A DNA stretch of 12,116 nucleotides from Candidatus Elarobacter sp. (GTDB lineage: Bacteria; Vulcanimicrobiota; Vulcanimicrobiia; Vulcanimicrobiales; Vulcanimicrobiaceae), in NCBI GenBank assembly GCA_030150085.1, contig JASLGJ010000303.1:1-12116 (forward strand), given 5' to 3'. Below the pieces are notes generated by a model. It saw only the letters and a list, made by a program, of their open reading frames with translations. It did no database searches and was not told the DNA's origin. This document shows positions 1,482-12,116 of this stretch, in pieces. A program made the translations under genes and the position numbers. Numbering within the stretch: position 1 is the first letter of the stretch; the number at the start of each line of letters is the position of its first letter.

Positions 1482-4157
1482 CTACTTCGGGGCCGCGCCG
1501 CCGGTGGTGAACGTGGGCCGCTGCTCGCTCACGTAGCCGTCGGCCGCCGGCACGAGCTGCCGTTTCTCGGCGGCCTGCGAGCGCGCGCGCTCCAGGCCGC
1601 GGGTCGCGAACTGCGCCGCGCCGGCCGGGGTGTGGCCCTTGACCCAGCTCTCGAGCTGGTCGAGCGGAGTCGCGTCCCAGAAGATTTGCGGAACGTACTG
1701 AGCGCTCACGATCATCCGCCCGACGTCGGTCTGGGCGCGCAGCACCGCGTCGCTGTGCGCGGTGAAGAAGGTCCATGCCAACTGCGGGTTCTCATCGGCC
1801 GCCGTCCTGACCAGGTCGAAGCGCGAGCCCTCTGCCTGGGGCGGGATCTCCGGCGAGAGCGCGATGCCGAGCGCCTGCTGGGCCAGGGCCGGATCGCGCA
1901 CCAGCATCAGCGCGGTGTAGTAGCGGCGCGTCTCGGCCTCGTCGCGCGCGCTCTTGGCGACCGCGTGCAGGGCGTCGAACGTCGTCCGGTCGGCGTGCTG
2001 CGCCACGATGCCGAGCACCACCCGCTGGTCGTCGGGCGAGAGCGCGGCGCGGTCGGCCGCGAAGGCCGCGAAGCGCTTGCGCGCTTCCGCGATCGTGGCG
2101 GGATCGTCCCACGCGCCCAGATCCTGGTTCACCGTGCGGCGCAGGTTCTGCCGGCCCGGCGTCTCGCCGGGCTTGGCGTCCCAGCCCAGCGCGCGCTGCA
2201 GCGGGGCGAGCAGCGAGCGCGCGTAGACCAGGTACGCGGCATGCCCGGCGCTCCCGCGCTCGTCGCGCTCCAGCGCCGCGAGCGCGTCGGTGATCTGCTC
2301 CCAGGCGCGCGCGTCGTAGTCGTCCTGCATCGCCCCGGCCAGGGCCAGGTACGAGCCCAGCGGCGCCTGGCCGGCGCGCGCGAGCGCCCACTGGTCGTCG
2401 AGCAGCGCGATCTTGTCGGCCTCGGGCAGGCTGCCGAACGCGCGCTGGTTGGCGGCCTGCGTCGCGCCGTCGTAGGCGACCCGGTAGTAGCCGACGTCGC
2501 CCGCGTTCGCGCGCAGCGGCTCGTCGCAGCGCCCCGCCGCCAGCGTCTGCCCGTCGCGCGTGAAGAGCACGCTCTGCGCCGCGCCGCGCGCGCCCGAGGC
2601 GACGTGCATCGGCACGTTCCAGCGCGGGTCGGCGGGATCGCTCCCGCTGAGCAGAAAGCGCTTCTGGCTCAGCGCGATCGTGCGGTTGCCGCTCGCGTCG
2701 CAGCTGGCGCGCACGCTCACCAGCGGGAAGCCGGGCTGGGTGGTCCAGCTCCCGGCGATCGCGCCGACGTCCTTGCCGCTGGCCGCGCTCAGCGCGTTCC
2801 ACAGGTCGGCCGCGGTGGCGTTGGAGAACTTGCGCGCCGCCACGTAGCGCCGGATGCCGGCGCGGAAGGTGTCGTCGCCCAAGTACGCCTCGGTCATGCG
2901 CAGGAAGGCCTGGCCCTTGGCGTAGGTGATCTCGGGGTCGAAGGCGGCGTCGGCCTCGAGCTCGTTGAGGATCGGCGGCGCGAGCTTGTGCGCGGTCGTG
3001 CGCGCGTCGGCGTTCATCGCCTTTTCCTTTTCGGAGTCCTGGCCTTCCCACCAGTTCCAGCTCGGGTTGGCGCGGTCGGTCTGCTTGGCCGCCATCCACG
3101 AGGCGAAGCTCTCGTTGAGCCAGAGGTCGTCCCACCACGCCATCGTGACCAGGTCGCCGAACCACTGGTGCGCCATCTCGTGCGCCTGCACGGCGTAGAT
3201 CTCTTGTTTCTGCTGCAGCGTCGCGGTCGGCGGGAGCAGCAGGATCTGGTCGTTGTAGGTGATCCCGCCCCAGTTCTCCATCGCGCCCTCGAAGCCGCCG
3301 GGCACCGCGATGGACGAGAGCTTCGCGAGCGGGTAGCGCACCCCGAAGTAGTCGTCGTAGGCGGTCAGGATCTGCTGCGAGTTGGCCAGCGCGTAGGCCC
3401 CGTTGCGCTCTTGCCCGCGCACCGCGACGATCTCGTGGCGCACCCCGTCGGCCGAGCTGGCCGAGATCGTGCCGAGGTCGCCCGCGCTGAGCACGACCAG
3501 ATACGACGCCATGCGCGGGGTGCGCGCGAAGGTCGTCGTCGCGCTGGCGCCGTGCACGGTGCGCGCCGCGACCGGCGTGTTCGAGACCGCGCTCCAGCTC
3601 GCCGGCAGGGTGACGCTGAGCTGGTAGGTCGCGCGGAACGCGGGCTCGTCCCAGCTCGGGAACATCCGCCGCGCGTCGGTCGACTCGAACTGGGTCGAGA
3701 GCATCACGCCCCGGCGCCCGCCCGGCGTGACGTAGGGCTGCGCGAACAGCCCCTGGGCCGAGCTCTCGATCTTGCCGGTGTACTCCAAGGCCAGGGTGTG
3801 CCGCCCCACCGCCAGCGGCCGCCCGAGCGACACGGTGGTGAGCTGCGCGTCGTTGCGCGTCCGCACGCGGCCCGCCGGCACGCCGTCCAGCCGCGCGCCG
3901 CGCACGGTCAGGTTGAGGGTGTTGAAGACGATCCGCGCGGTCGGGCGGCGCACGTCGAGCACGATCGTCTCGCTCCCGCGCAGCGTCCGCGCGGCCAGGT
4001 CGGGCGTGACGGCGATGCGGTAGCCGAGCGGCACGACCGTTTTGGGCAGGCGCCCGGGCGTGGCGTCGAACGCGAACGGCCCGGCCGCGCGCGCGGGAGC
4101 CGCCAGAGCGAGCGCGCACGCCGCCGCGAACGCCGTCCGAAGGAGCGAGAACTGCAT
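1482..4157 (-). CDS. Exported M1-family (gluzincin) aminopeptidase
   Basis: This 891-aa zinc metallopeptidase removes N-terminal amino acids from peptides. It begins with a typical signal peptide: Arg7, a hydrophobic stretch 8-20, then PARAAG as the likely cleavage region near 24-25. It is therefore probably periplasmic or secreted. The M1 hallmarks are all present: exopeptidase motif GAMENWG at 291-297, zinc motif HEMAHQW with H326, H330 and catalytic E327, third ligand E349 in LWLNES exactly 18 residues later, and the transition-state Tyr412 in ITYAKG. Residues from about 500 to 860 form the helical ERAP1/PepN-type C-terminal domain. A weak ribosome binding site (GGAAG) precedes the ATG. 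It starts 42 bp after the TauE-like gene, so the two are probably co-transcribed, possibly with alkB. Family call is very strong; the specific substrate is unknown. Confidence 0.95.
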   Translation of the reverse strand: MQFSLLRTAFAAACALALAAPARAAGPFAFDATPGRLPKTVVPLGYRIAVTPDLAARTLRGSETIVLDVRRPTARIVFNTLNLTVRGARLDGVPAGRVRTRNDAQLTTVSLGRPLAVGRHTLALEYTGKIESSAQGLFAQPYVTPGGRRGVMLSTQFESTDARRMFPSWDEPAFRATYQLSVTLPASWSAVSNTPVAARTVHGASATTTFARTPRMASYLVVLSAGDLGTISASSADGVRHEIVAVRGQERNGAYALANSQQILTAYDDYFGVRYPLAKLSSIAVPGGFEGAMENWGGITYNDQILLLPPTATLQQKQEIYAVQAHEMAHQWFGDLVTMAWWDDLWLNESFASWMAAKQTDRANPSWNWWEGQDSEKEKAMNADARTTAHKLAPPILNELEADAAFDPEITYAKGQAFLRMTEAYLGDDTFRAGIRRYVAARKFSNATAADLWNALSAASGKDVGAIAGSWTTQPGFPLVSVRASCDASGNRTIALSQKRFLLSGSDPADPRWNVPMHVASGARGAAQSVLFTRDGQTLAAGRCDEPLRANAGDVGYYRVAYDGATQAANQRAFGSLPEADKIALLDDQWALARAGQAPLGSYLALAGAMQDDYDARAWEQITDALAALERDERGSAGHAAYLVYARSLLAPLQRALGWDAKPGETPGRQNLRRTVNQDLGAWDDPATIAEARKRFAAFAADRAALSPDDQRVVLGIVAQHADRTTFDALHAVAKSARDEAETRRYYTALMLVRDPALAQQALGIALSPEIPPQAEGSRFDLVRTAADENPQLAWTFFTAHSDAVLRAQTDVGRMIVSAQYVPQIFWDATPLDQLESWVKGHTPAGAAQFATRGLERARSQAAEKRQLVPAADGYVSEQRPTFTTGGAAPK

Positions 4158-4199: not shown

Positions 4200-4952
4200 T
4201 CAGACGCGGCGGAAGAACACGACCGTCATCAGCGCGCCCAGCGCGACGATCGTCCAGCGCAGCGGCGCGGGCGGGATGCGGCGCACCAGCTTCGCGCCAT
4301 AGTAGCCGCCCGCCAGCGCACCGACGCACATCGCGGCCGCGGCGTCCCACGTGATCGCGCGCGCGAGCACGAACGGGATCAAGGGCACGCCGTTGTTGAC
4401 GAACGAGAGCACGATCTTGAGCGCGTTGGCACGCTGCAGATCGGTGAAGCCGAGCAGCACGAACAGGGCCAGCAGCAAGAAGCCCTGCCCGCCCCCGAAG
4501 AACCCGCCGTACACGCTCACGAAGAACAGCGGCAGCAGGCCGCCGTAGGGAATCTCGCGCACCGCCCGGGCCCGCCCGCCCAGCCGCAGCAGCAGCGGGC
4601 CCAACGCGAAGAGCAGGGTCGAGAACAGCAGCAGCCAGGGGATCGCGGCCGAGAAGGTCTTGGCCGGGGTGCGCAGCAGCAGCAGCCCGCCCGTCACCCC
4701 GCCCAGCAGGCAGGTCAGCAGCGCGGCCCGGGTCTGGGCCGAGGGGTGCTCGAGCAGGTCGCGGTAGCCCCCGATGCTGCCCGCCCCGCCGACCCACATC
4801 GCCACGGAGTTGGTCGCGTTGGCCCCGATCGGCGGCACGCCCAGGAAGACCAGGGTCGGAAACGAGACGAACGAGCCCCCGCCGGCCGCGGAGTTGATCG
4901 CGGCCGCGACCGCCGCCGCGCCGGCCGCCAGGACGAGCGCTCCCCCATTCAC
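4200..4952 (-). CDS. TauE/SafE (TSUP) family membrane permease
   Basis: A 250-aa hydrophobic integral membrane protein of the TSUP family, whose members move sulfite, sulfonates or other organosulfur and organic anions across the cytoplasmic membrane. It shows the family's two related halves. The N-terminal half has AGGGSFVSFPTLVFLGVPP (about 22-40) followed by ANATNSVA. The second half has YGGFFGGGQGFLLLALF and then LQRANALKIVLSFVNN. About seven to eight hydrophobic segments are visible. The frame is open much further upstream, but that extension (to 5297) is hydrophilic, runs opposite to two plus-strand genes and lacks family character. The start chosen is therefore GTG at 4952. No Shine-Dalgarno is evident there. 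The start faces the acidic-protein gene 15 bp away. The substrate cannot be told from sequence. Confidence 0.88.
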   Translation of the reverse strand: MNGGALVLAAGAAAVAAAINSAAGGGSFVSFPTLVFLGVPPIGANATNSVAMWVGGAGSIGGYRDLLEHPSAQTRAALLTCLLGGVTGGLLLLRTPAKTFSAAIPWLLLFSTLLFALGPLLLRLGGRARAVREIPYGGLLPLFFVSVYGGFFGGGQGFLLLALFVLLGFTDLQRANALKIVLSFVNNGVPLIPFVLARAITWDAAAAMCVGALAGGYYGAKLVRRIPPAPLRWTIVALGALMTVVFFRRV

Positions 4953-5177: not shown

Positions 5178-5804
5178 GTGAACGGCACCCGCAGCGCGCG
5201 CGCGAGCCTGTGGGAGAAGGCCTTGAGTCTTCCCCTGGCTCGCGACGAGGACTTCTTCGGTAGCAACGAGCGTCCGGCCGGGGTCGACCCCGAGCACGTC
5301 CGGGTCATCAACGACACGGCACTCCGCTCGCGGCTGATCATGGCCGGTATCGCCGAGGGGTTACAGTCACCCAAGGGACCGCAGCGCATCAAGTCCATCA
5401 TCCGCTTGTATCCAGGTTTCGACGCGCCACGCCCGGGGGGCAGCAAGCCGCGCCCGGTCCGGGCGGCCGCCGCCCCCGCCCCGCCGCCCGGCCGGACCGC
5501 CTTCGGCCTGCCCACCGTGGAGGAGCTCAACGCGCTGCTGGCCCGCATCGGGCAGGCCGAGCGCGAGGTCAGCCAGGAGCTGCAGGGCCGCGTCACCTCC
5601 GACATCGAGCGGCTCAAGAAGCAGATCGGCACGCTCGACGGGGACGCCTTCGAGCGGGCCTTCCGCGAGCTGGAGAACGCCATGCGCCAGCGGCGCGAGC
5701 TGGCCGGCCAGATCCGCGAGGAGGCCTTCCGGCGGGTCGAGGCCGACGCGGCCTTCGAGCCGCGCCGCTACCTGCGGCTGCTCTCGCGCGAGACGTCTCG
5801 CTGA
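5178..5804 (+). CDS. Hypothetical coiled-coil protein, possible phasin/PhaE-like
   Basis: This 208-aa protein has three parts. Residues 1-75 form a mixed helical region with a conserved look (LWEKALSLP, PEHVRVINDTALRSRL). Residues 75-110 are a Pro/Ala/Arg-rich linker. Residues 112-195 are strongly helical and charged, with heptad character (VEELNALLARIGQAEREV, IERLKKQIG, FRELENAMRQRREL). The stretch GLPTVEELNALLARIGQAE loosely recalls the segment after the linker in PHA-synthase subunit PhaE and phasins, but there is no diagnostic motif, so no function is assigned. The GTG at 5178 has only a weak upstream GGTGAC. A GTAAC motif repeated three times precedes it (about 5149-5166). It ends 10 bp from the convergent metallothionein gene. 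Confidence 0.8.
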   Translation: MNGTRSARASLWEKALSLPLARDEDFFGSNERPAGVDPEHVRVINDTALRSRLIMAGIAEGLQSPKGPQRIKSIIRLYPGFDAPRPGGSKPRPVRAAAAPAPPPGRTAFGLPTVEELNALLARIGQAEREVSQELQGRVTSDIERLKKQIGTLDGDAFERAFRELENAMRQRRELAGQIREEAFRRVEADAAFEPRRYLRLLSRETSR

Positions 5805-5814
5805 GGACCGGCGT

Positions 5815-6036
5815 TCACTGCATCGGAGGGACGTCGACGGAGGTCTGCGGCGTGCACTCCGGGTGGCCGCACTCGCAGCCGTCGGCGTGAATGCCCTCGC
5901 TCGCCATCTCCTCGCAGCGCCGGCTGCAGTAGGCGGCGTCGGGGTCGAGCGGCGAGGTGGAGGCGGCCCGCGTCCGCTCCGAATACGGTTTGGTACAGCG
6001 GCACGTCTCGTGGGCGCAGGTCTCCGGCGTCGTCAT
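5815..6036 (-). CDS. Prokaryotic metallothionein (SmtA/BmtA-like)
   Basis: A 73-aa Cys-rich metal-binding protein matching the cyanobacterial and pseudomonad SmtA/BmtA pattern. There are eight Cys: C7, C12 and C14 (CAHETCRC), C37 and C41 (YCSRRC), C54, C56 and C61 (CECGHPEC). His at 9, 50 and 58 could also bind metal. The order of N-terminal Cys cluster, YCS..C knuckle, and CGH..C tail is the family's order. Where SmtA has a second Cys in the first cluster, this protein has His9. Such proteins chelate Zn, Cd or Cu in clusters and buffer or detoxify metals in the cytoplasm. It is divergent from the LuxR-type regulator, with 92 bp between them. No clear Shine-Dalgarno precedes the ATG, and no classical SmtB operator was seen. 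Confidence 0.85.
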   Translation of the reverse strand: MTTPETCAHETCRCTKPYSERTRAASTSPLDPDAAYCSRRCEEMASEGIHADGCECGHPECTPQTSVDVPPMQ

Positions 6037-6128: not shown

Positions 6129-8732
6129 GTGATCCGGAGCATCGCGGCCGATGGGCGTCCCGATCTCGGCGGAGTGTTCCGGCCGATCGATCGCCCGCGC
6201 GTTCTGGAGCGCCTCGCCACGGCGGCCCAGTACCGCATCGCGACGATCATCGCCCCGGCCGGCTTCGGCAAGTCGGTCGCGATCCGGCAGTTCCTCGAGA
6301 GCGTCCCGGCCTCGGTCGTCTACGACGTCCCCTCCGACGCGACCACCCTGCTCCCGTTCGTGCGCGGCTTCGCCGACGCGCTGGCCGCGGTCGTCCCGGC
6401 CCTGCGCCGGTCGCTGGCCACCGCCCTGGACGGGGCGCGCGATTCCGACTGCCCCAGCCGCGACCTGGCCGCCTGGGCGGCGACCCACGTGCGCGCGCTC
6501 GACATGCTGATCGCGATCGACGACCTGCACGTGGGCGAGGGCGACCCCGAGATCTCGCGCTTCATCACCGCCCTGGTCGACCGCACCCGGGACGGGCCGC
6601 GCTGGCTCTTCTCCTCGCGCAGCCCGCTCCAGCTCCCGGTCGCCTCGTGGCTGGCCTACGGCGAGTCGGACCTGGTGATCGACGCCGTCGACCTGCGCTT
6701 CGACCTGGACGAGGCCAAGCAGAGCGCGCGGGCCACCCGCATCGCGGTGCGCGACGACGAGCTGGCCGCGATCCTCGAGCTGATCGACGGCTGGCCGGCC
6801 GCGCTGACCTTCGCCCTGCGCACCTCGACCCGGGCCAGCGACCTGCGCGCGGTCTCGGCCGGCACGCGCGAGATGGTCTACCGCTACCTGGCCGAGCAAG
6901 TCTGGAACTCGCTCGACGACCGGGTCCGCACGTTCCTGCGCACCGCCGCCTTCCTGCCCCGGCTCGAGACCCGCCTGGCGGTCGCGGCCGGCTTCGACGA
7001 CGCGGCGGCGATCATCGAGTCGCTGCGCGAACGGGTGGCCTTCATCACCGTGGTCGAGACCGGGATCTACAAGCTGCACAGCCTGTTCCGCGACTTCGTG
7101 CAGCGCCAGGTCCAGCTCGAGGGCGACGACGCGCTGCGCGCCGCGCGCATGCTCGCCGCGCGCGTGCTGGAGCAGGCCGGAATGCCCGGCCCGGCGCTGG
7201 AGCGCTACATCGAGACCCGCGCCGTGGACGACATCGAGCGCATCCTGGCGACCCTGAACTTCGCCCTGCTCGAGGGCGGGCACTACGACGTGGTCGAGCG
7301 GGCCCTGCGCCTGGTCCCGCCGGGGCGCTCCGCCCGCAGCGGCGTGCTGGCCCTGCGGGCCGCGATCGAGGACTCGCACGGCCGGGTCGAGCAGGCCGAG
7401 AAGTGGTACACCACCGTGCTGGAGCGGGACGGCGACGACGTCTCGTTCCGCGTCTCGGTGGCCTGGCGCTTCGCCCTGCTGCTCTACCAGCAGGGCCGCT
7501 GCGAGGGCATCCCGCGCCTGGAGGAGCTGGAGCGCGAGGACTTGAGCCCGGTCGACCGGGCTCAGGTCAGCGGCACCCTGGGAATGGTCTACGCGCTGGC
7601 CGGACGGCGCGAGGACGCCGACCGGGCGATCGGGGAGGCCATGGAGCTGGCCCAGTTCGCCGAGGACGAGCTGCGCGCGCGCACCTACGGCCGCGCCGCC
7701 ACGGTGGCCTTCTACGCCGCCGACGAGGACGCGGTCGAGCACTACACCCGCGAAGCGACCCGGCTGGCGGCCGACTGCGGAGCCTTCTCCATCGCGGCCC
7801 GGCTCTACAGCACCCTCTACTCCCTGCACGCGCTGGCCGGCCGGACGGCGGCCGCCGCCTGGTACGCGGCCCAGATCGCGACCAACGCCGAGAAGGCCGG
7901 CGACCCCCAGATGCGCGCCATGGGCCTGCGCGCCGGGCTGGAGCTGGAGGCCGAGCGCGGGAACGCCGAACGGGTGGCCGATATCGAGCGCGAGCTGGCG
8001 GCGCTGGCTTACCGCGGGCACGTCGGACTGCTCGGGCTGCTCAGCGGGCGGGCGATCGCGCTGGCCTGGAACAACGCCTTCCACGACGCCCAGGTGCTGC
8101 TGCAGAGCGCCGCCGACCGGGACCTGCGGCCCTACCAGCACCGCATCCGCTGGGCCCTGCTGGCGGTCGTCGCCGCGGCGGCCCAGAACCGCCGCGAAGC
8201 GGCCTCCGCGCTGTCCGCCTACGAGCAGGCGGTGGCCCGGGACGACGACACGCGGCCCGTGTTCGACCGCGCCCGCGCGCTGGCCGAGCGCTACGCCGTG
8301 CTGGCCAACCTGCTGGTCGGCCGCAACGCGATGGCCCAGCGCATGCTGCGCGCGCTGCGCTACCCGCGCGAGGACTTCGAGCACTTCGACGCCGCCCTCA
8401 AGGGCCTGGCCACCCGCACCCCCGAGCGGGTCGAGGCGGCGCTGCGCGGGATGCGCTTGGCCGGGCTGGCCGGGATCGCGCGCTTCGTCGAGGCGGTGAC
8501 CGCCCACCAGCACGACGAGGAACCGCAGCCGGCCGGCGAGCTGGCCTTGACCGCGGTCGAGCTGCAGGTGCTGCGGGCGATGGCCCAGGGGCTCTCCAAC
8601 CAGGCGATCGCGGACGACCAGCAGCGGACGATCAACACCGTCCGCACCCACGTCTCGTCGATCCTCAAGAAGCTCGGCGCGGCCAGCCGGGGCGAGGCCG
8701 TGGCGATGGCCCGCCGGCGCGAGCTCGTCTAA
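6129..8732 (+). CDS. LAL/MalT-type LuxR-family transcriptional regulator with STAND ATPase
   Basis: This 867-aa cytoplasmic regulator has the large ATP-binding LuxR architecture. An N-terminal STAND NTPase follows, with Walker A APAGFGKS at 42-49 and Walker B LIAIDDLH near 127-134, then FSSRSP near 160-165, the usual position after Walker B in this family. A long helical-repeat (TPR-like) sensor region spans about 250-800. A C-terminal LuxR-type HTH runs from about 804 to 867 (LTAVELQVLRAMAQGLSNQAIA, then TVRTHVSSILKKLGA). Such proteins switch DNA binding on when ATP and an inducer bind. An in-frame stop at 6114-6116 makes the GTG at 6129 the first possible start, and the N-terminus then has the usual short lead-in to the P-loop. 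It is divergent from the metallothionein gene and followed by a hairpin, a short peptide gene and an HD-GYP gene. The inducer is unknown. Confidence 0.93.
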   Translation: MIRSIAADGRPDLGGVFRPIDRPRVLERLATAAQYRIATIIAPAGFGKSVAIRQFLESVPASVVYDVPSDATTLLPFVRGFADALAAVVPALRRSLATALDGARDSDCPSRDLAAWAATHVRALDMLIAIDDLHVGEGDPEISRFITALVDRTRDGPRWLFSSRSPLQLPVASWLAYGESDLVIDAVDLRFDLDEAKQSARATRIAVRDDELAAILELIDGWPAALTFALRTSTRASDLRAVSAGTREMVYRYLAEQVWNSLDDRVRTFLRTAAFLPRLETRLAVAAGFDDAAAIIESLRERVAFITVVETGIYKLHSLFRDFVQRQVQLEGDDALRAARMLAARVLEQAGMPGPALERYIETRAVDDIERILATLNFALLEGGHYDVVERALRLVPPGRSARSGVLALRAAIEDSHGRVEQAEKWYTTVLERDGDDVSFRVSVAWRFALLLYQQGRCEGIPRLEELEREDLSPVDRAQVSGTLGMVYALAGRREDADRAIGEAMELAQFAEDELRARTYGRAATVAFYAADEDAVEHYTREATRLAADCGAFSIAARLYSTLYSLHALAGRTAAAAWYAAQIATNAEKAGDPQMRAMGLRAGLELEAERGNAERVADIERELAALAYRGHVGLLGLLSGRAIALAWNNAFHDAQVLLQSAADRDLRPYQHRIRWALLAVVAAAAQNRREAASALSAYEQAVARDDDTRPVFDRARALAERYAVLANLLVGRNAMAQRMLRALRYPREDFEHFDAALKGLATRTPERVEAALRGMRLAGLAGIARFVEAVTAHQHDEEPQPAGELALTAVELQVLRAMAQGLSNQAIADDQQRTINTVRTHVSSILKKLGAASRGEAVAMARRRELV

Positions 8733-8742
8733 GCGAAACAGC

Positions 8743-8760
8743 CTCGTCCTTTCGGACGAG
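8743..8760 (+). terminator. Hairpin after the LuxR-type regulator, possible terminator
   Basis: CTCGTCC and GGACGAG form a perfect 7-bp stem with loop TTTC, beginning 10 nt after the regulator's stop codon. The following TGTCGCCTTTA has only a short T-run, so termination may be weak or factor-dependent. It separates the regulator from the peptide/HD-GYP unit. The rest of 8733-8831 shows only a loose -10-like TAGTGT (8783-8788) as a possible promoter for that unit. Confidence 0.5.
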
Positions 8761-8818
8761 TGTCGCCTTTACCGCTCCTTGTTAGTGTGGAGGTGTCCCC
8801 GCCGCGCCTGTCTCGCAC

Positions 8819-8826
8819 AAGGAGGT
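8819..8826 (+). promoter_or_regulatory. Near-perfect ribosome binding site of peptide A
   Basis: AAGGAGGT matches the full anti-Shine-Dalgarno complement. Its GG core ends 6 nt before a GTG at 8832. It is the strongest ribosome binding site I see in the window, and no larger gene starts at it. This is the main reason to believe the short reading frame that follows. Confidence 0.8.
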
Positions 8827-8831
8827 CCCCC

Positions 8832-8909
8832 GTGGTTCACGTCTTCTTCACCAGCTTGGTGATCGCGGTGACCGTCGCCGTCACCACCATGCCCCCCACG
8901 GGCCTCTAA
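8832..8909 (+). CDS. Short hydrophobic peptide A (25 aa), unrecognised
   Basis: A 25-codon frame beginning GTG GTT CAC GTC and ending TAA. The peptide opens MVHVFFTS, continues with a run of Val, Ile, Ala, Leu and Thr (about residues 9-18) and ends MPPTGL. It has a single His and no other charged side chain. It could span or sit in a membrane, act as a signal peptide-like leader, or be a short hydrophobic signalling peptide. Evidence that it is translated is the near-perfect ribosome binding site 6 nt upstream. It lies 26 nt ahead of the HD-GYP start, so the two are probably one transcript. A related peptide gene occurs at 11510-11590 in the matching position of the facing cassette, sharing M-V-H-[V/I]-[F/W] and Ser8. 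Function is unknown; a mere attenuation leader is the main alternative. Confidence 0.65.
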   Translation: MVHVFFTSLVIAVTVAVTTMPPTGL

Positions 8910-8935
8910 GAAACCTCGCGAGCAGGAAAGCAGAC

Positions 8936-9904
8936 ATGGAAGGTTGGGCCGCGCTGGCGCGGCGACTCCTCGAATCCCGAACGGCCGTCGCGGACACCGT
9001 TCTCGAGCGCTTCGGGCCGCGCTCCTCGGGCCAGGCCCCGCGCCTGATCGTCCGCTCGCTGGTGGCCGCGCTGGGCCAGGCGATCGAGACCGCGGACCCC
9101 GAGCCGGTCGTGTCGTGGGCCCGCATGGCGCACGCCGCCTACGCGCTCCCGGTCATCCAAGACCTGGTCTGGCTGACGACCGAGGTCGCGGCCGAGGCCG
9201 GCGAACCGCTCGAGCTGGACTTCTCCGCCCTGCTGGTCTTCCTCGAGATCGTCAAGGCGAACGTCAGCGAAGCGTTCCCGCTCGCGCCCGGCCCGCGCAT
9301 TGAAGACCCCCAGCGGGGCACGAACGGCGTGATCGAGGCCGTCCTGACCATGCTCAAGGCGCGCGACGAGGCGACCTGCGCCCACTCCCACGCGACCGGG
9401 GCCTGGTGCCGCCGCCTGGCCGAGGCGCTCGGCCTCTCGGCCGCGACGACGGACCTCATCGTCAAAGCCGGCGTGCTGCACGACATCGGCAAGATCGCGA
9501 CGCCGGACGCGATCCTGTTCAAGGCCGGTCCGCTGGACGCGGCCGAGTGGGCCGTCATGCGCAAGCACGCCGAGTTCGGGGCCGACATCCTGAGCGAGCT
9601 GCCGGCGCTGGCGGTGTACGCGCCGATCGTGCGCGCCCACCACGAGCGCTGGGACGGCCACGGCTACCCCAGCGGGCTGGCCGGCGAGGAGATTCCCTTC
9701 GAAGCCCGGGTCGTGGCGGTGGCTGACGCGTTCCACGCCATGATCTCGAACCGGCCCTACCGCCCCGCCATCGCGCAGCGCGAGGCGATGGAGATCCTGC
9801 GCGCGGGGCGCGGGACGCAGTGGGACCCCGAAGTCGTGGACGCGATGATGACAGTGTTGGAAGCGCCTCGGATCGCCGGTCGGCGGGAAGCGGCGCGCGG
9901 CTAG
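8936..9904 (+). CDS. HD-GYP domain phosphodiesterase, copy 1
   Basis: A 322-aa cytoplasmic protein whose C-terminal part (about 130-310) is an HD-GYP domain, the metal-dependent hydrolase that breaks down cyclic di-GMP (some members cyclic GMP-AMP). Visible residues are H150 in the CAHSHATG helix, HDIGK at 182-186, H211, HHERWDGHGYP at 235-245 with the GYP signature intact, and the VADAFHAM segment with D264. It looks catalytically competent. Residues 1-125 are a helical domain without a motif I recognise and without membrane segments. It includes ETADPEPVVSWARM (51-64) and SALLVFLEIV (97-106), both shared with the second HD-GYP protein, so it is probably a conserved input domain. An AGGA motif lies about 8 nt before the ATG. 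It follows peptide A closely and ends at a good terminator. Confidence 0.93.
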   Translation: MEGWAALARRLLESRTAVADTVLERFGPRSSGQAPRLIVRSLVAALGQAIETADPEPVVSWARMAHAAYALPVIQDLVWLTTEVAAEAGEPLELDFSALLVFLEIVKANVSEAFPLAPGPRIEDPQRGTNGVIEAVLTMLKARDEATCAHSHATGAWCRRLAEALGLSAATTDLIVKAGVLHDIGKIATPDAILFKAGPLDAAEWAVMRKHAEFGADILSELPALAVYAPIVRAHHERWDGHGYPSGLAGEEIPFEARVVAVADAFHAMISNRPYRPAIAQREAMEILRAGRGTQWDPEVVDAMMTVLEAPRIAGRREAARG

Positions 9905-9926
9905 CCCTACCTGGGTGTGGGCCCGA

Positions 9927-9959
9927 AAGAGGATCGTGCGCGGGGTGCACGGTCCTCTT
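9927..9959 (+). terminator. Intrinsic-type terminator of HD-GYP copy 1
   Basis: A 13-bp stem (9927-9939 with 9947-9959, one G-T wobble) with a 7-nt GC-rich loop starts 23 nt after the stop codon and is followed by CCGTTTTC. On the opposite strand the stem is followed only by TTTCGGG, so it serves + best. Confidence 0.75.
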
Positions 9960-9977
9960 CCGTTTTCAGGGCCAAGC

Positions 9978-10015
9978 CGAAGGGCCGCCGGTGCGTTCGC
10001 ACCGACGGCCCTTCG
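9978..10015. terminator. Second strong hairpin between the convergent HD-GYP genes
   Basis: Arms of 16 paired bases with a single C/A mismatch (9988/10005) and loop GTTC form a very stable hairpin, 31 bp from the stop of the minus-strand HD-GYP gene. There is no T-run on either side. It may stop or insulate transcription from the minus strand, or stabilise the 3' end of its mRNA. Confidence 0.5.
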
Positions 10016-10046
10016 TCGCCCTACACCCGGGGATTTACGTCTGCGT

Positions 10047-11096
10047 TCAGCCGGCCAGCGTCTGGCTCGACGGCGGGGCCGGCGCGATCGGCCCGTACTC
10101 GTTCATCGGGGCCAGGTCGGCGTCGGCGGAGCGGGTGCGGGCCGAGGCGGCCACGCTCACCATCGCGTCGACGACCTCGGCGTCCCACTGCGTGCCGCGC
10201 CCCTGGCCGAGGACCGTGATCGCGGCGCCGTACGAGAGCGCGCGCCGGTACGGCCGGTCGCTGACCATGGCGTGGAACGCGTCGGCGACCGCCACGACCC
10301 GCGCCTCGAAGGGGATCACCTCGCCGGCGAACCCGTCCGGGTACCCGTTGCCGTCGACGCGCTCGTGGTGCGCGCGCACGATCGGGGCGTACTGGGCCAA
10401 GCTCGGGATCTGGGCCAGGATCTCGCCGCCGAACGGGGCGTGCTGCTTCATGACCGCCCACTCGTCGGCGTCCAGCGGGCCGGCCTTGAGCAGGATCGCG
10501 TCGGGGGTGGCGATCTTGCCGATGTCGTGCAGCACGCCGGCCTTGACCACCCGGTCGGTGACGGCATTGGTCAGGCCCAGCCCGTTGGCCAGGCGGCGGC
10601 ACCACACGCCGGTCGCGCGGGAGTGGGTGCAGGTCGCTTCGTCGCGGGCGCGCAGCATGGCCAGCACGCTCTCGATGACCGGGCGGTGCATCTCGTCGGG
10701 CGAGAGCACCGGCTCGCTGATCAGCAGCGCCTCGCGGGCGTGCTCCTGCACGACTTCGAGGAACACCAGCACGGTGGAGAGATCGTCGCACAGGCGCTCG
10801 GCATACTCGGCGGCGACGTCGCACGCGATCGAGATCATCTCGAGCACCACGTGCGGGGAATGCGCGCCGCGCGCCATGCGGCCCCAGTGCAGGACCACGT
10901 CGGGATCGGTGGTCTCGATCGACTTCGCGACCGTCACGATCAGGGTGCGCAGGAGCAGGGCCGTCACGCGATCGTTGCCGACGCGAGCGACGATGTCTTC
11001 GGCGATGGCGATGCGGTCATCGCCAAGTCGACGTGCGAGGCTCACCCGGTCGGGCACGTACAGGGACGGCGGCGTGCTTTCGCGCTGGTGGTGCAT
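10047..11096 (-). CDS. HD-GYP domain phosphodiesterase, copy 2
   Basis: A 349-aa paralogue of the HD-GYP protein at 8936-9904, transcribed toward it. The HD-GYP domain (about 140-315) has the helix THSRATG with H158, HDIGK at 190-194, H219, HHERVDGNGYP at 243-253, and ADAFHAM with D272. The GYP signature and metal ligands look intact. The N-terminal helical domain (about 18-130) shares ETTDPDVVLHWGRM and STVLVFLEVV with copy 1. It differs by an N-terminal extension of about 16 residues and a C-terminal Ala/Pro-rich tail after about 318. It probably hydrolyses cyclic di-GMP. It starts 18 bp after the 127-aa gene, so it belongs to that operon. No clear Shine-Dalgarno precedes the ATG at 11096, so translation may depend on coupling, or start at the GTG of V14 or V18. 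Confidence 0.92.
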   Translation of the reverse strand: MHHQRESTPPSLYVPDRVSLARRLGDDRIAIAEDIVARVGNDRVTALLLRTLIVTVAKSIETTDPDVVLHWGRMARGAHSPHVVLEMISIACDVAAEYAERLCDDLSTVLVFLEVVQEHAREALLISEPVLSPDEMHRPVIESVLAMLRARDEATCTHSRATGVWCRRLANGLGLTNAVTDRVVKAGVLHDIGKIATPDAILLKAGPLDADEWAVMKQHAPFGGEILAQIPSLAQYAPIVRAHHERVDGNGYPDGFAGEVIPFEARVVAVADAFHAMVSDRPYRRALSYGAAITVLGQGRGTQWDAEVVDAMVSVAASARTRSADADLAPMNEYGPIAPAPPSSQTLAG

Positions 11097-11114
11097 GGCG
11101 GTGTTCGGACGGCG

Positions 11115-11498
11115 CTATCCCGCGAACGCGCGGCTGCCGAAACCCTCTGTCGAAGAGCTGCCGAAGTCGTCGAGCGGAAACACGTCGCGCTGCAGATTGG
11201 CGATCCGGCGCATCCACTTCTCGAGCAGCGAGAGCGGGATGTCGCCCAGGCTGTCGATCACGAGCTGGCCGGCGGCGGCCAGGACGTCGGCCAGCGCGTG
11301 CCCGAGGCCCAGCGAACTGCCGACGAAGGCGTTGAGCGGACCGAGGTCGTCGCTCTCGAGCGCCAGGCGCATGTACGAGGCGGCCGCGTGAACCAGCGAG
11401 ACGTTGGCCTCGGTCGCGGCCGTCGCGGAGCACGACTCCAGGAACACCGCGGCGCTGTCGGAACGCCGGCTCGCGCGGTCAGCGGCGAGTTGATACAT
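11115..11498 (-). CDS. 127-aa helical protein in the HD-GYP operon
   Basis: I do not recognise a named family. It is almost entirely predicted helix, with segments AAVFLESCSATAAT, VSLVHAAASYMRLALESDD, ALADVLAAAGQLVIDSLG and LSLLEKWMRRIANLQRDVF, then a Ser/Gly-rich tail. The order of helices and the positions of ALESDDLGPLNAF and LLEKW resemble, weakly, the N-terminal input domain of the two HD-GYP proteins (SIETTDPDVVLHW, FLEVV), so it may be a stand-alone relative of that domain. The frame is open further upstream, but the start at 11498 is favoured by AAGGCGG (11505-11511) 6 nt before the ATG. That site overlaps the stop codon of peptide B, which implies translational coupling. It is followed 18 bp later by HD-GYP copy 2, its likely functional partner. 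Confidence 0.75.
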   Translation of the reverse strand: MYQLAADRASRRSDSAAVFLESCSATAATEANVSLVHAAASYMRLALESDDLGPLNAFVGSSLGLGHALADVLAAAGQLVIDSLGDIPLSLLEKWMRRIANLQRDVFPLDDFGSSSTEGFGSRAFAG

Positions 11499-11509
11499 CG
11501 GCGTCCGCC

Positions 11510-11590
11510 TTAGGAAACGCCGGGGAAAATGGTGCAGACCACGCCATGAAGCAGGTGCGAGATCGTGCTGATGACCCAGATGTGAACCAC
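11510..11590 (-). CDS. Short hydrophobic peptide B (26 aa), related to peptide A
   Basis: A 26-codon frame that opens GTG GTT CAC ATC and ends TAA. The peptide begins MVHIWVIS, continues with STISHLLHGVVCT and ends IFPGVS. It is hydrophobic with three His and one Cys, and has no acidic or Lys/Arg residue. A GAGGGG ribosome binding site (11597-11602) lies 6 nt upstream, the same spacing as in peptide A. Its TAA overlaps the ribosome binding site of the 127-aa gene, 11 nt from that start, so translation is probably coupled. Similarity to peptide A covers the nine-base opening, [V/I] at 4, [F/W] at 5, Ser8 and a Pro near the end. Being found twice in the same position argues that it is real. Its role is unknown: leader, small membrane protein or signalling peptide. 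Confidence 0.6.
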   Translation of the reverse strand: MVHIWVISTISHLLHGVVCTIFPGVS

Positions 11591-11745
11591 GTAATTCCCC
11601 TCGGCTAGCGAATCGAAGCGGCTGATAAACGCGCCGCCGCTTTTGATCCCAGCTTAGCGCAAGCACCGTGCGAGGGCATGGGGGAAACACCCTATGGTCG
11701 AGGAAAAGGCCTGTCTTACCTGGGTTTTTCGCTATCAGGACTTTC
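11591..11745 (-). promoter_or_regulatory. Leader/promoter region of the peptide B-HD-GYP operon
   Basis: This stretch after the LuxR-type gene has lower GC than its surroundings and no convincing gene other than the start region of peptide B. On the - strand, just after the regulator's stop, an imperfect long-range stem (GGAAAGTCCTG with CAGGCCTTTTCC, loop of about 22 nt) could end transcription. A second small stem (11677-11696, 7 bp with one wobble, loop of 6) follows. A -10-like TAAGCT followed by GGG lies near 11653-11658; the matching TAGTGT-GG before peptide A is similar. None of these is strong. I looked for a cyclic-di-GMP riboswitch and saw none. Confidence 0.35.
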
Positions 11746-12116
11746 CTAGGCCCGGATTCCCAACTCGCGCGCTCGGCGAATCGCTTGGGCACGGTTCGAG
11801 ACGTGCAGTTTCTCGTAAATGCTCTCCACCTGCCGCTCGACCGTCTTCTTCGACTTGCCGAAACCCGCCGCGATCTCGGCCAGCGTCACGCCGTCGGGCA
11901 GTGCTCGCAGCACTTCCATCTCAGCCGGCGTCAAGCCGGCCGCCGGACGTATCGCGAGGGCCGCCGCGGCGGATGCGTTGATGAAGCGCGCGTACCCACG
12001 CAGCATGGGCGCGACACGCTGCTCGTCGATTCCCTGGGGGGAAAGCAATCGCGCGAAGGTGTGATCGGCGTCAAACTCGCGCGAGAGCGCGCGCCGGGCG
12101 CGCGTCGTCTCGCCGA
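11746..12116 (-). CDS. LuxR-family regulator, C-terminal part (5' end outside the window)
   Basis: The frame is open to the right edge, giving 122 residues plus the stop. The last 65 or so form a LuxR-type HTH: LTPAEMEVLRALPDGVTLAEIAAGFG, then KKTVERQVESIYEKLHVSNRAQAI. The preceding segment (RVAPMLRGYARFINA) lines up loosely with the region just before the HTH in the 867-aa regulator (RVEAALRGMRLAG..ARFVEAV). This suggests another large LAL/MalT-type protein rather than a small response regulator, but the ATPase part is out of view. A TTG at 12048 could start a short protein; the coding-like frame upstream argues against that. It is followed on the same strand by peptide B, the 127-aa gene and HD-GYP copy 2, mirroring the order on the + strand. 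Confidence 0.85.
   Translation of the reverse strand, partial: GETTRARRALSREFDADHTFARLLSPQGIDEQRVAPMLRGYARFINASAAAALAIRPAAGLTPAEMEVLRALPDGVTLAEIAAGFGKSKKTVERQVESIYEKLHVSNRAQAIRRARELGIRA

Follow-up and report, generated by a model that had tools for sequence, protein, structure and literature searches.

The peptide quorum-sensing systems of Bacillota and phages grouped as RRNPP (or RRNPPA), namely Rap-Phr, Rgg-SHP, NprR-NprX, PlcR-PapR, PrgX and AimR, are the closest described systems to the locus analysed here. As set out in passages of the RRNPP_detector paper (PMC10075063), they combine a propeptide of 10-100 aa with the adjacent gene of a receptor of 250-500 aa that contains tetratricopeptide repeats (TPR), the propeptide being exported by Sec (or PptAB), matured and bound as mature peptide by the TPR domain; in the same passages, clusters with an N-terminal TPR were discarded. 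Parts of PMC10075063, PMC9765709 and PMC11343458 describe cognate peptide ligands with a processed C-terminal active part, and a passage of PMC9765709 gives RRNPPA transcription factors an N-terminal helix-turn-helix (HTH). A second point of comparison is the LAL/MalT-like STAND regulators, which have a P-loop ATPase, a TPR-like region and a C-terminal LuxR/GerE HTH. MalT senses maltotriose, and we know of no ligand for most regulators of this type. Here we describe a 12,116-nt contig of the Eremiobacterota (Vulcanimicrobiota), JASLGJ010000303.1 of Candidatus Elarobacter sp. (the window, meaning this whole stretch), where two convergent cassettes each carry a LuxR-type regulator, a dyad, a short peptide gene and a gene for an HD-GYP protein. 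Our best reading is that these cassettes work like RRNPP quorum sensing but are not RRNPP, because their receptor architecture differs. Specifically, we hypothesize, with a probability of roughly 0.57, that the peptide is the cognate ligand of the TPR-LuxR regulator, probably a secreted pheromone, and that the regulator activates an operon encoding the peptide and a cyclic-di-GMP (c-di-GMP) phosphodiesterase. The two facing cassettes of the original prediction, with their order of regulator, peptide and HD-GYP, are present in the window:

6129..8732, + strand: cassette 1 regulator, an 867-aa MalT-like LAL protein with P-loop ATPase, TPR superhelix and C-terminal LuxR/GerE HTH
8743..8760, + strand: operator 1, perfect 7-4-7 dyad CTCGTCC-TTTC-GGACGAG (CTCGTCCTTTCGGACGAG), putative site of the LAL HTH
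8780..8788, + strand: putative extended -10 element TGTTAGTGT (TGnTAnnnT)
8819..8826, + strand: Shine-Dalgarno (SD) AAGGAGGT of peptide A, 8/8 match, 5-nt spacing to the GTG start
8832..8909, + strand: peptide A gene, 25 codons, MVHVFFTSLVIAVTVAVTTMPPTGL, tail PPTGL; frame position kept in relatives
8936..9904, + strand: HD-GYP protein 1, 322 aa, helical N-domain and HD-GYP domain (HDIGK, HHERWDGHGYP; HD_5 1.1e-38)
10047..11096, - strand: HD-GYP protein 2, 349 aa
11115..11498, - strand: 127-aa protein of cassette 2
11510..11590, - strand: peptide B gene, 26 codons, MVHIWVISTISHLLHGVVCTIFPGVS, tail FPGVS with P at -4; position kept in relatives
11599..11602, - strand: weak 4-base SD, GAGG, of peptide B
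11651..11656, - strand: putative -10 TAAGCT of cassette 2 (TATGCT in 9/11 relatives compared)
11678..11695, - strand: putative operator 2, imperfect dyad ATAGGGTGTTTCCCCCAT, 5/7 outer pairs
11746..12116, - strand: C-terminal 122 aa of the cassette 2 TPR-LuxR regulator (GerE 3.9e-11), the gene being cut by the contig end

The cassettes resemble RRNPP in that a TPR receptor, putatively a transcription factor as in most RRNPP subfamilies, is encoded beside a short propeptide of similar length with a putative C-terminal active part, some precursors have tandem copies and Opp-type proteins are present; the short hydrophobic peptide bodies also recall the SHPs. TPR are seen in an AlphaFold2 model and fold comparison of the window LAL and in a homologous region of the cassette 2 regulators. 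Unlike RRNPP: (i), the HTH of the receptors is C-terminal and of GerE/LuxR type, where an N-terminal HTH followed by a C-terminal TPR would be expected; (ii), the receptors do not keep to the 250-500 aa range, at 867 aa for the LAL protein, which adds an ATPase, and mostly 491-516 aa in cassette 2; (iii), the peptides lack a Sec-like basic N-terminus and usually end in PPxxG; (iv), the output is an HD-GYP protein; and (v), the phylum is the Eremiobacterota, whose cultured member Vulcanimicrobium alpinum (genome 3.50 Mbp) is described in passages of PMC9758169 as having a Gram-negative wall and an outer membrane. Among LAL/MalT-like regulators, the window LAL has the full set of P-loop ATPase, TPR-like domain and C-terminal GerE HTH; no LAL followed by a peptide gene came up in the literature searched. 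The HD-GYP proteins carry the HD and HHExxDGxGYP motifs of class II c-di-GMP phosphodiesterases such as 4r8z (PA4781) and 4mcw, and unlike these they have an N-domain of their own. The whole looks like a peptide signalling system of a kind for which we found no description in the open-licence PubMed Central literature, neither for LAL/LuxR-TPR regulators paired with short peptides nor for such signalling in Eremiobacterota.

The association of peptide and regulator was assessed in a survey for which the motif, P-x-x-x-stop and usually PP, had been fixed beforehand. A profile of the cassette 2 TPR region matched in 53 of the 149 genomes of the phylum that make up our genome set, and together with earlier loci it yielded 85 distinct regulators with at least 300 nt downstream; this set takes in a few HTH fragments without TPR as well as loci fetched because of HD-GYP, and because sister genomes contribute several near-duplicate regulators, independent cases are fewer. 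Counting frames of 8-45 aa led by an SD of at least five bases within 260 nt downstream, we found one after 43/85 regulators, with P at -4 in 37 and PP at -5/-4 in 30, and the frame started 70-145 nt past the regulator stop in all 43. When the 11 cassette-1-type and 12 cassette-2 loci are left aside, a frame follows 28/62 regulators, with P at -4 after 22/62 and PP after 17/62. In the same loci, 397 other genes served as controls and gave 28 frames. Four of these frames had P at -4, but three of the four (L156, L157, L158) were duplicate fetches of regulators L066, L076 and L068 and were moved by hand. The co-occurrence that the original prediction had proposed to compare with chance thus holds up, at 37/85 regulators versus a corrected 1/394 control genes; antisense to the regulator regions, 7 frames were counted and 0/85 had P at -4. 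With the SD relaxed to at least four bases, the counts are 45/85 regulators versus 15/397 controls (including L156, L157 and L158). The five-base rule misses eight peptides (L003, L016-L020, L073 and window peptide B), which were entered by hand to label a regulator tree of 81 rows, built without three regulators shorter than 250 aa and one lost row; the last of the eight, window B, is absent from it. In this tree a PP close to the end or a P at -3 was also enough for a label, so that 49 of the 81 regulators are labelled with a peptide, spread over several separate clades.

What recurs in these peptides is the tail, a proline four residues before the stop and usually PPxxG: P stands at -4 in 44 of the 49 labelled peptides, PP within the last eight residues in 40 and a final G in 26. 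In cassette 1 the tails are PPTGL (window), PPMGA, PPQGS, PPIG, PPMAG, PPMGG, LPIGN, PPMSC, PPMGG and PPMGG, the commonest being PPMGG. The original prediction had instead linked the peptides by their shared opening codons (GTG GTT CAC), but relatives start with MIN, MID, MTD, MDV and others, which rules out these codons as a conserved feature. Lengths are 10-45 aa in 48/49 peptides, L016 having 9 aa, and two cassette-2 peptides of just 9 and 10 residues are a start plus a tail. The bodies are hydrophobic (median grand average of hydropathy, GRAVY, 1.9 once the last five residues are excluded). Comparing synonymous (pS) and non-synonymous (pN) differences gave pooled values of pS 0.37 and pN 0.24, and the comparison is strongest in a distant LAL group (pS 0.40-0.53, pN 0.07-0.12); the cassette 1 tail is likewise constrained (pS 0.46, pN 0.27, ungapped from the stop). 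At locus L026 the precursor consists of MYASRISSI followed by three tandem SVVPVGGA copies, which differ by at least 10 substitutions, all of them synonymous and at third positions. The constrained tails, these synonymous tandem copies and the 9-10-residue peptides together point to the C-terminal unit as the part under selection, and position, SD and tail support the frame as a real peptide gene. A search for further SVVPVGGA repeats gave matches in 39/149 genomes at E<=1, convincing only in the source itself, G085 (9.5e-15); of 11 other matches inspected, 10 have a frame of similar sequence, PPYHCA..VTVVPVGAAMS, that is not repeated and may run antisense to a conserved gene, and no such frame was seen in the eleventh, L172.

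The window LAL, the putative receptor of cassette 1, matches Pfam GerE at 2.7e-13 and AAA families below their curated cut-offs, and its P-loop APAGFGK (42-48) is invariant in 44 sequences. Its AlphaFold2 model (predicted local distance difference test, pLDDT, 86.8) has a TPR part that matches MalT domain III and peptide-bound Rap/NprR in a fold comparison in which generic TPR proteins take ranks alongside the RRNPP chains; the best named solved relative is MalT 8bob by sequence and MalT DT3 1hz4 by fold. The two window regulators had been proposed to share the HTH and the region before it. Their C-termini are 32% identical over 97 aa (E 9e-7, a single comparison), and the TPR regions of cassette 1 and cassette 2 regulators are homologous (hhalign probability 98.8, E 9e-17). 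The cassette 2 regulators of relatives are shorter, with 491-516 aa in 8/10 and 561 and 654 aa (mechanical starts) in two, and the ATPase gave no match in the two full-length relatives scanned, the window copy being cut. Homology between the two window regulators is thus limited to TPR and HTH.

Between regulator and peptide, operator 1 is invariant at 18/18 columns across 10 loci, where its two flanks reach 3/16 and 3/12, and a TGnTAnnnT element lies 19-20 nt downstream in 10/10 loci, a spacing that would fit an activator site overlapping the -35. Exact operator 1 sites occur once per genome in 9 of the 12 genomes searched, precisely the 9 that hold cassette 1, and since there is one such site per genome, the cassette 1 regulator may mainly serve its one operon. 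In the window the site is single even with up to 3 mismatches allowed, and sites with two mismatches showed no excess in the 12 genomes (6 versus 5 for a reversed-pattern control). Dyads were located with a palindrome finder and by eye, the flank comparison being made for operator 1 alone. The candidate dyad of cassette 2 is perfect in L017 and L019 (ATGAGGCATACGCCTCAT), varies elsewhere and is weak in the window, L018 and L020; other class-specific candidates are CTAGTGAATTTTAACTAG with a one-mismatch form (L022-L024), CTAGTCGGAATTGACTAG (L068) and CTCCCCAGATCTTGGGAG (L066). Plausible 18-bp candidates are thus available for cassette 1, cassette 2, L022-L024, L068, L128 and L066/L076. By the same finder and by eye, no clear dyad lies between regulator and peptide in L085-L088, L111-L117, L061 and L062, so that a dyad for every regulator class is unsupported.

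The cassettes recur in related genomes. Searching with the HD-GYP N-domain gave matches in 21/149 genomes: cassette-1 orthologues in 7 (E 1.7e-59 or lower), 11 cassette-2 loci in 10 (E 4e-27 to 2e-18) and 9 weaker loci. A short frame of 20-26 aa lies directly upstream of HD-GYP in 7/7 of these cassette-1 loci, and the exact operator 1 search found one site each in the same 7 genomes and in G128 and G130, where LAL, operator and peptide are present and the HD-GYP N-domain or frame is lost. G129 (L048) has the LAL gene and a degenerate operator without adjacent peptide or HD-GYP. The peptide frame between regulator and HD-GYP, whose conservation the original prediction had made its check, is kept in 9/10 cassette-1 relatives, the exception being L048, and in 11/11 cassette-2 relatives, there with P at -4 and before a gene of 115-126 aa (in L018 without a recognisable SD). 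Regulator, peptide and HD-GYP therefore recur as a unit, which supports the gene-order part of the claim that they work as one; their joint function is a reading of that order. The 7 relatives that hold both cassettes have them on different contigs. Although many of these contigs are short, the two of G130 are Mb-sized and have the cassettes well away from their ends. Facing cassettes are therefore not a general arrangement, and the duplication seems to be old. G124, a single-contig genome of 3,508,363 bp, carries a cassette 2.

The two HD-GYP proteins of the window share both domains, as proposed, at 57% identity over 307 aa; both have the HD and HHExxDGxGYP motifs, whose residues are invariant or nearly so across 37 sequences. 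The solved relatives 4r8z and 4mcw show 31-37% identity in fold matches, and the best PDB sequence match is 5z7c, a 3'3'-cGAMP phosphodiesterase chain. With their motifs intact, these proteins are presumably c-di-GMP phosphodiesterases. Eight organism-named proteins are found among 89 close proteins, 4 from Candidatus Eremiobacteraeota, 2 from Candidatus Elarobacter (same phylum) and 2 labelled otherwise by depositors, and the five genome loci found are all Eremiobacterota metagenome-assembled genomes. The N-domain (window 8936-9300) has a weak fold match to globin/phycobiliprotein-like proteins and may have such a fold. The 127-aa protein of cassette 2, kept at 115-126 aa in 11/11 relatives, has no Pfam match and matches the HD-GYP N-domain weakly (hhalign probability 9.6, E 0.003). 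HD-GYP is the commonest gene next after the peptide, but the peptide is still present in L046 and L068, which have lost the HD-GYP N-domain, in L047, whose HD-GYP frame looks broken, and in L085 and L088, where an unrelated 64-83 aa protein (MELDPLLMLLDFLVG..) follows. On this distribution of genes, the peptide goes with the regulator more closely than with HD-GYP. Most economically, it would be a cognate TPR ligand with a processed C-terminal active part.

In such a mechanism, each cassette would be a dedicated regulator-peptide switch. The regulator, a MalT-like LAL protein in cassette 1 and a TPR-LuxR protein without ATPase in cassette 2, would bind an 18-bp dyad upstream of a conserved -10 and activate, this being the presumed direction of control, an operon for the short peptide and the HD-GYP c-di-GMP phosphodiesterase. 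The peptide would be translated as a precursor, the active ligand being its C-terminal 5-8 residues, commonly [V/I]PPxxG, and this tail would control the adjacent regulator by binding to its TPR superhelix. Export, trimming and re-uptake via Opp-type importers would probably precede binding, following the logic of quorum sensing, and as output c-di-GMP would fall.

Several observations weigh against this account. Labelled peptides are missing for 32/81 tree regulators, including one whole clade of 13 LALs (by eye, SD-led frames are seen in at least 4 of the 32: L021, L026, L090 and L134). In fold comparison, the TPR domains of APC/C (anaphase-promoting complex) and LGN score 18-23, so the fold alone is generic, and OppA is ubiquitous (11/14 control genomes). 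The tails and some groups are clearly under selection at the protein level, but the cassette 1 body shows no such constraint (pS 0.57, pN 0.54, ungapped from the stop) and pN equals or exceeds pS in 7/31 peptide pairs; pooled pN/pS values being weak as sole proof of coding, the argument is therefore carried by tails, SD and survey. Any K/R is found in only 7/47 peptides longer than 12 aa, unlike Sec signals, and no export route is apparent; the outer membrane described for the cultured phylum member in passages of PMC9758169 also counts against export. That envelope and the hydrophobic bodies with few basic residues would suit a ligand that acts on the regulator only inside the producing cell, as an intracellular or membrane micropeptide that does not pass between cells, and the linkage of regulator and peptide fits this equally. 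The tandem precursor of L026 and the 9-10-residue forms suggest processing or a self-sufficient C-terminal unit, typical of exported signals, and we consider a purely internal ligand unlikely, at perhaps one chance in five.

Ribosomes stall at Pro-Pro motifs, and leader peptides that act through stalling are known. The short frame, which lies ahead of the output gene with its proline fixed at -4 from the stop in 44/49 peptides, could thus be a cis-acting leader where the ribosome stalls or slows near the stop, tuning the next gene. This we find improbable: the gap between the end of the peptide frame and the next HD-GYP or 127-aa start that was recognised ranges from about 4 to 128 nt (on mechanical starts); folding of the RNA of 19 loci gave z from -2.0 to 1.6 with a mean of about 0, no structure above shuffles, and an attenuator RNA was dropped as a general mechanism; tails are class-biased and several lack PP (FPGVS, SPTYS, QPIGC, GPLVG, LPIGN, IPLCG); the triple SVVPVGGA copies also lack PP, and repeats would be useless for stalling. 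Moreover, the peptide tracks the regulator family across different downstream genes. The same persistence without an intact HD-GYP neighbour, and in L085 and L088 before an unrelated protein, makes it very doubtful that the peptide is a small partner (subunit or membrane anchor) of HD-GYP and not of the regulator, even though HD-GYP is its most frequent neighbour.

If the cognate-ligand reading is true, peptide signalling through intracellular TPR receptors extends beyond Bacillota and is linked directly to c-di-GMP turnover, and it shows why gene finders can miss such systems, 37/49 labelled frames being shorter than 30 codons. A peptide gene beside dozens of LAL/MalT-like regulators offers a concrete, synthesizable candidate ligand for each, and the idea is testable, given that a cultured phylum member exists (Vulcanimicrobium alpinum, as described in passages of PMC9758169). 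More tentatively, and at a little less than even odds, the Eremiobacterota might possess an independent, phylum-wide family of peptide quorum sensing, with PPxxG pheromones and cytoplasmic MalT-like TPR-LuxR receptors controlling c-di-GMP breakdown. Such a family would be the Gram-negative parallel to RRNPP signalling: its receptors would carry an unrelated DNA-binding domain, placed at the other end of the protein, a genome would hold several pairs of pheromone and receptor, and one precursor would contain its pheromone in tandem copies.

Further TPR-LuxR paralogues adjoin cassette 2 regulators in L034 (2007-3485, -) and L082 (G127:C19), with no SD-led short frame downstream in the survey, and another, in L097 (G001:C8), is directly followed by a gene for an OppA-type oligopeptide-binding protein. 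Three window neighbours are ordinary:

1485-4157, 4203-4868 and 764-1405, all - strand: an M1 aminopeptidase, a TauE/SafE permease and an AlkB-like 2-oxoglutarate-Fe(II) oxygenase, respectively

Upstream of the LAL gene, a protein of about 207 aa (MNGTRSAR..WEKA..) is encoded in the window (5178-5804, +; no Pfam match for this copy) and in L047 (3869-4492, +). A metallothionein-like small protein is encoded divergently from the LAL gene in the window (5815-6036, -) and in L048 (3868-4173, -); it ends in ...VDVPPMQ and ...AGIPPM, respectively, like the peptide tails, and a motif search of 22 loci found these two only.

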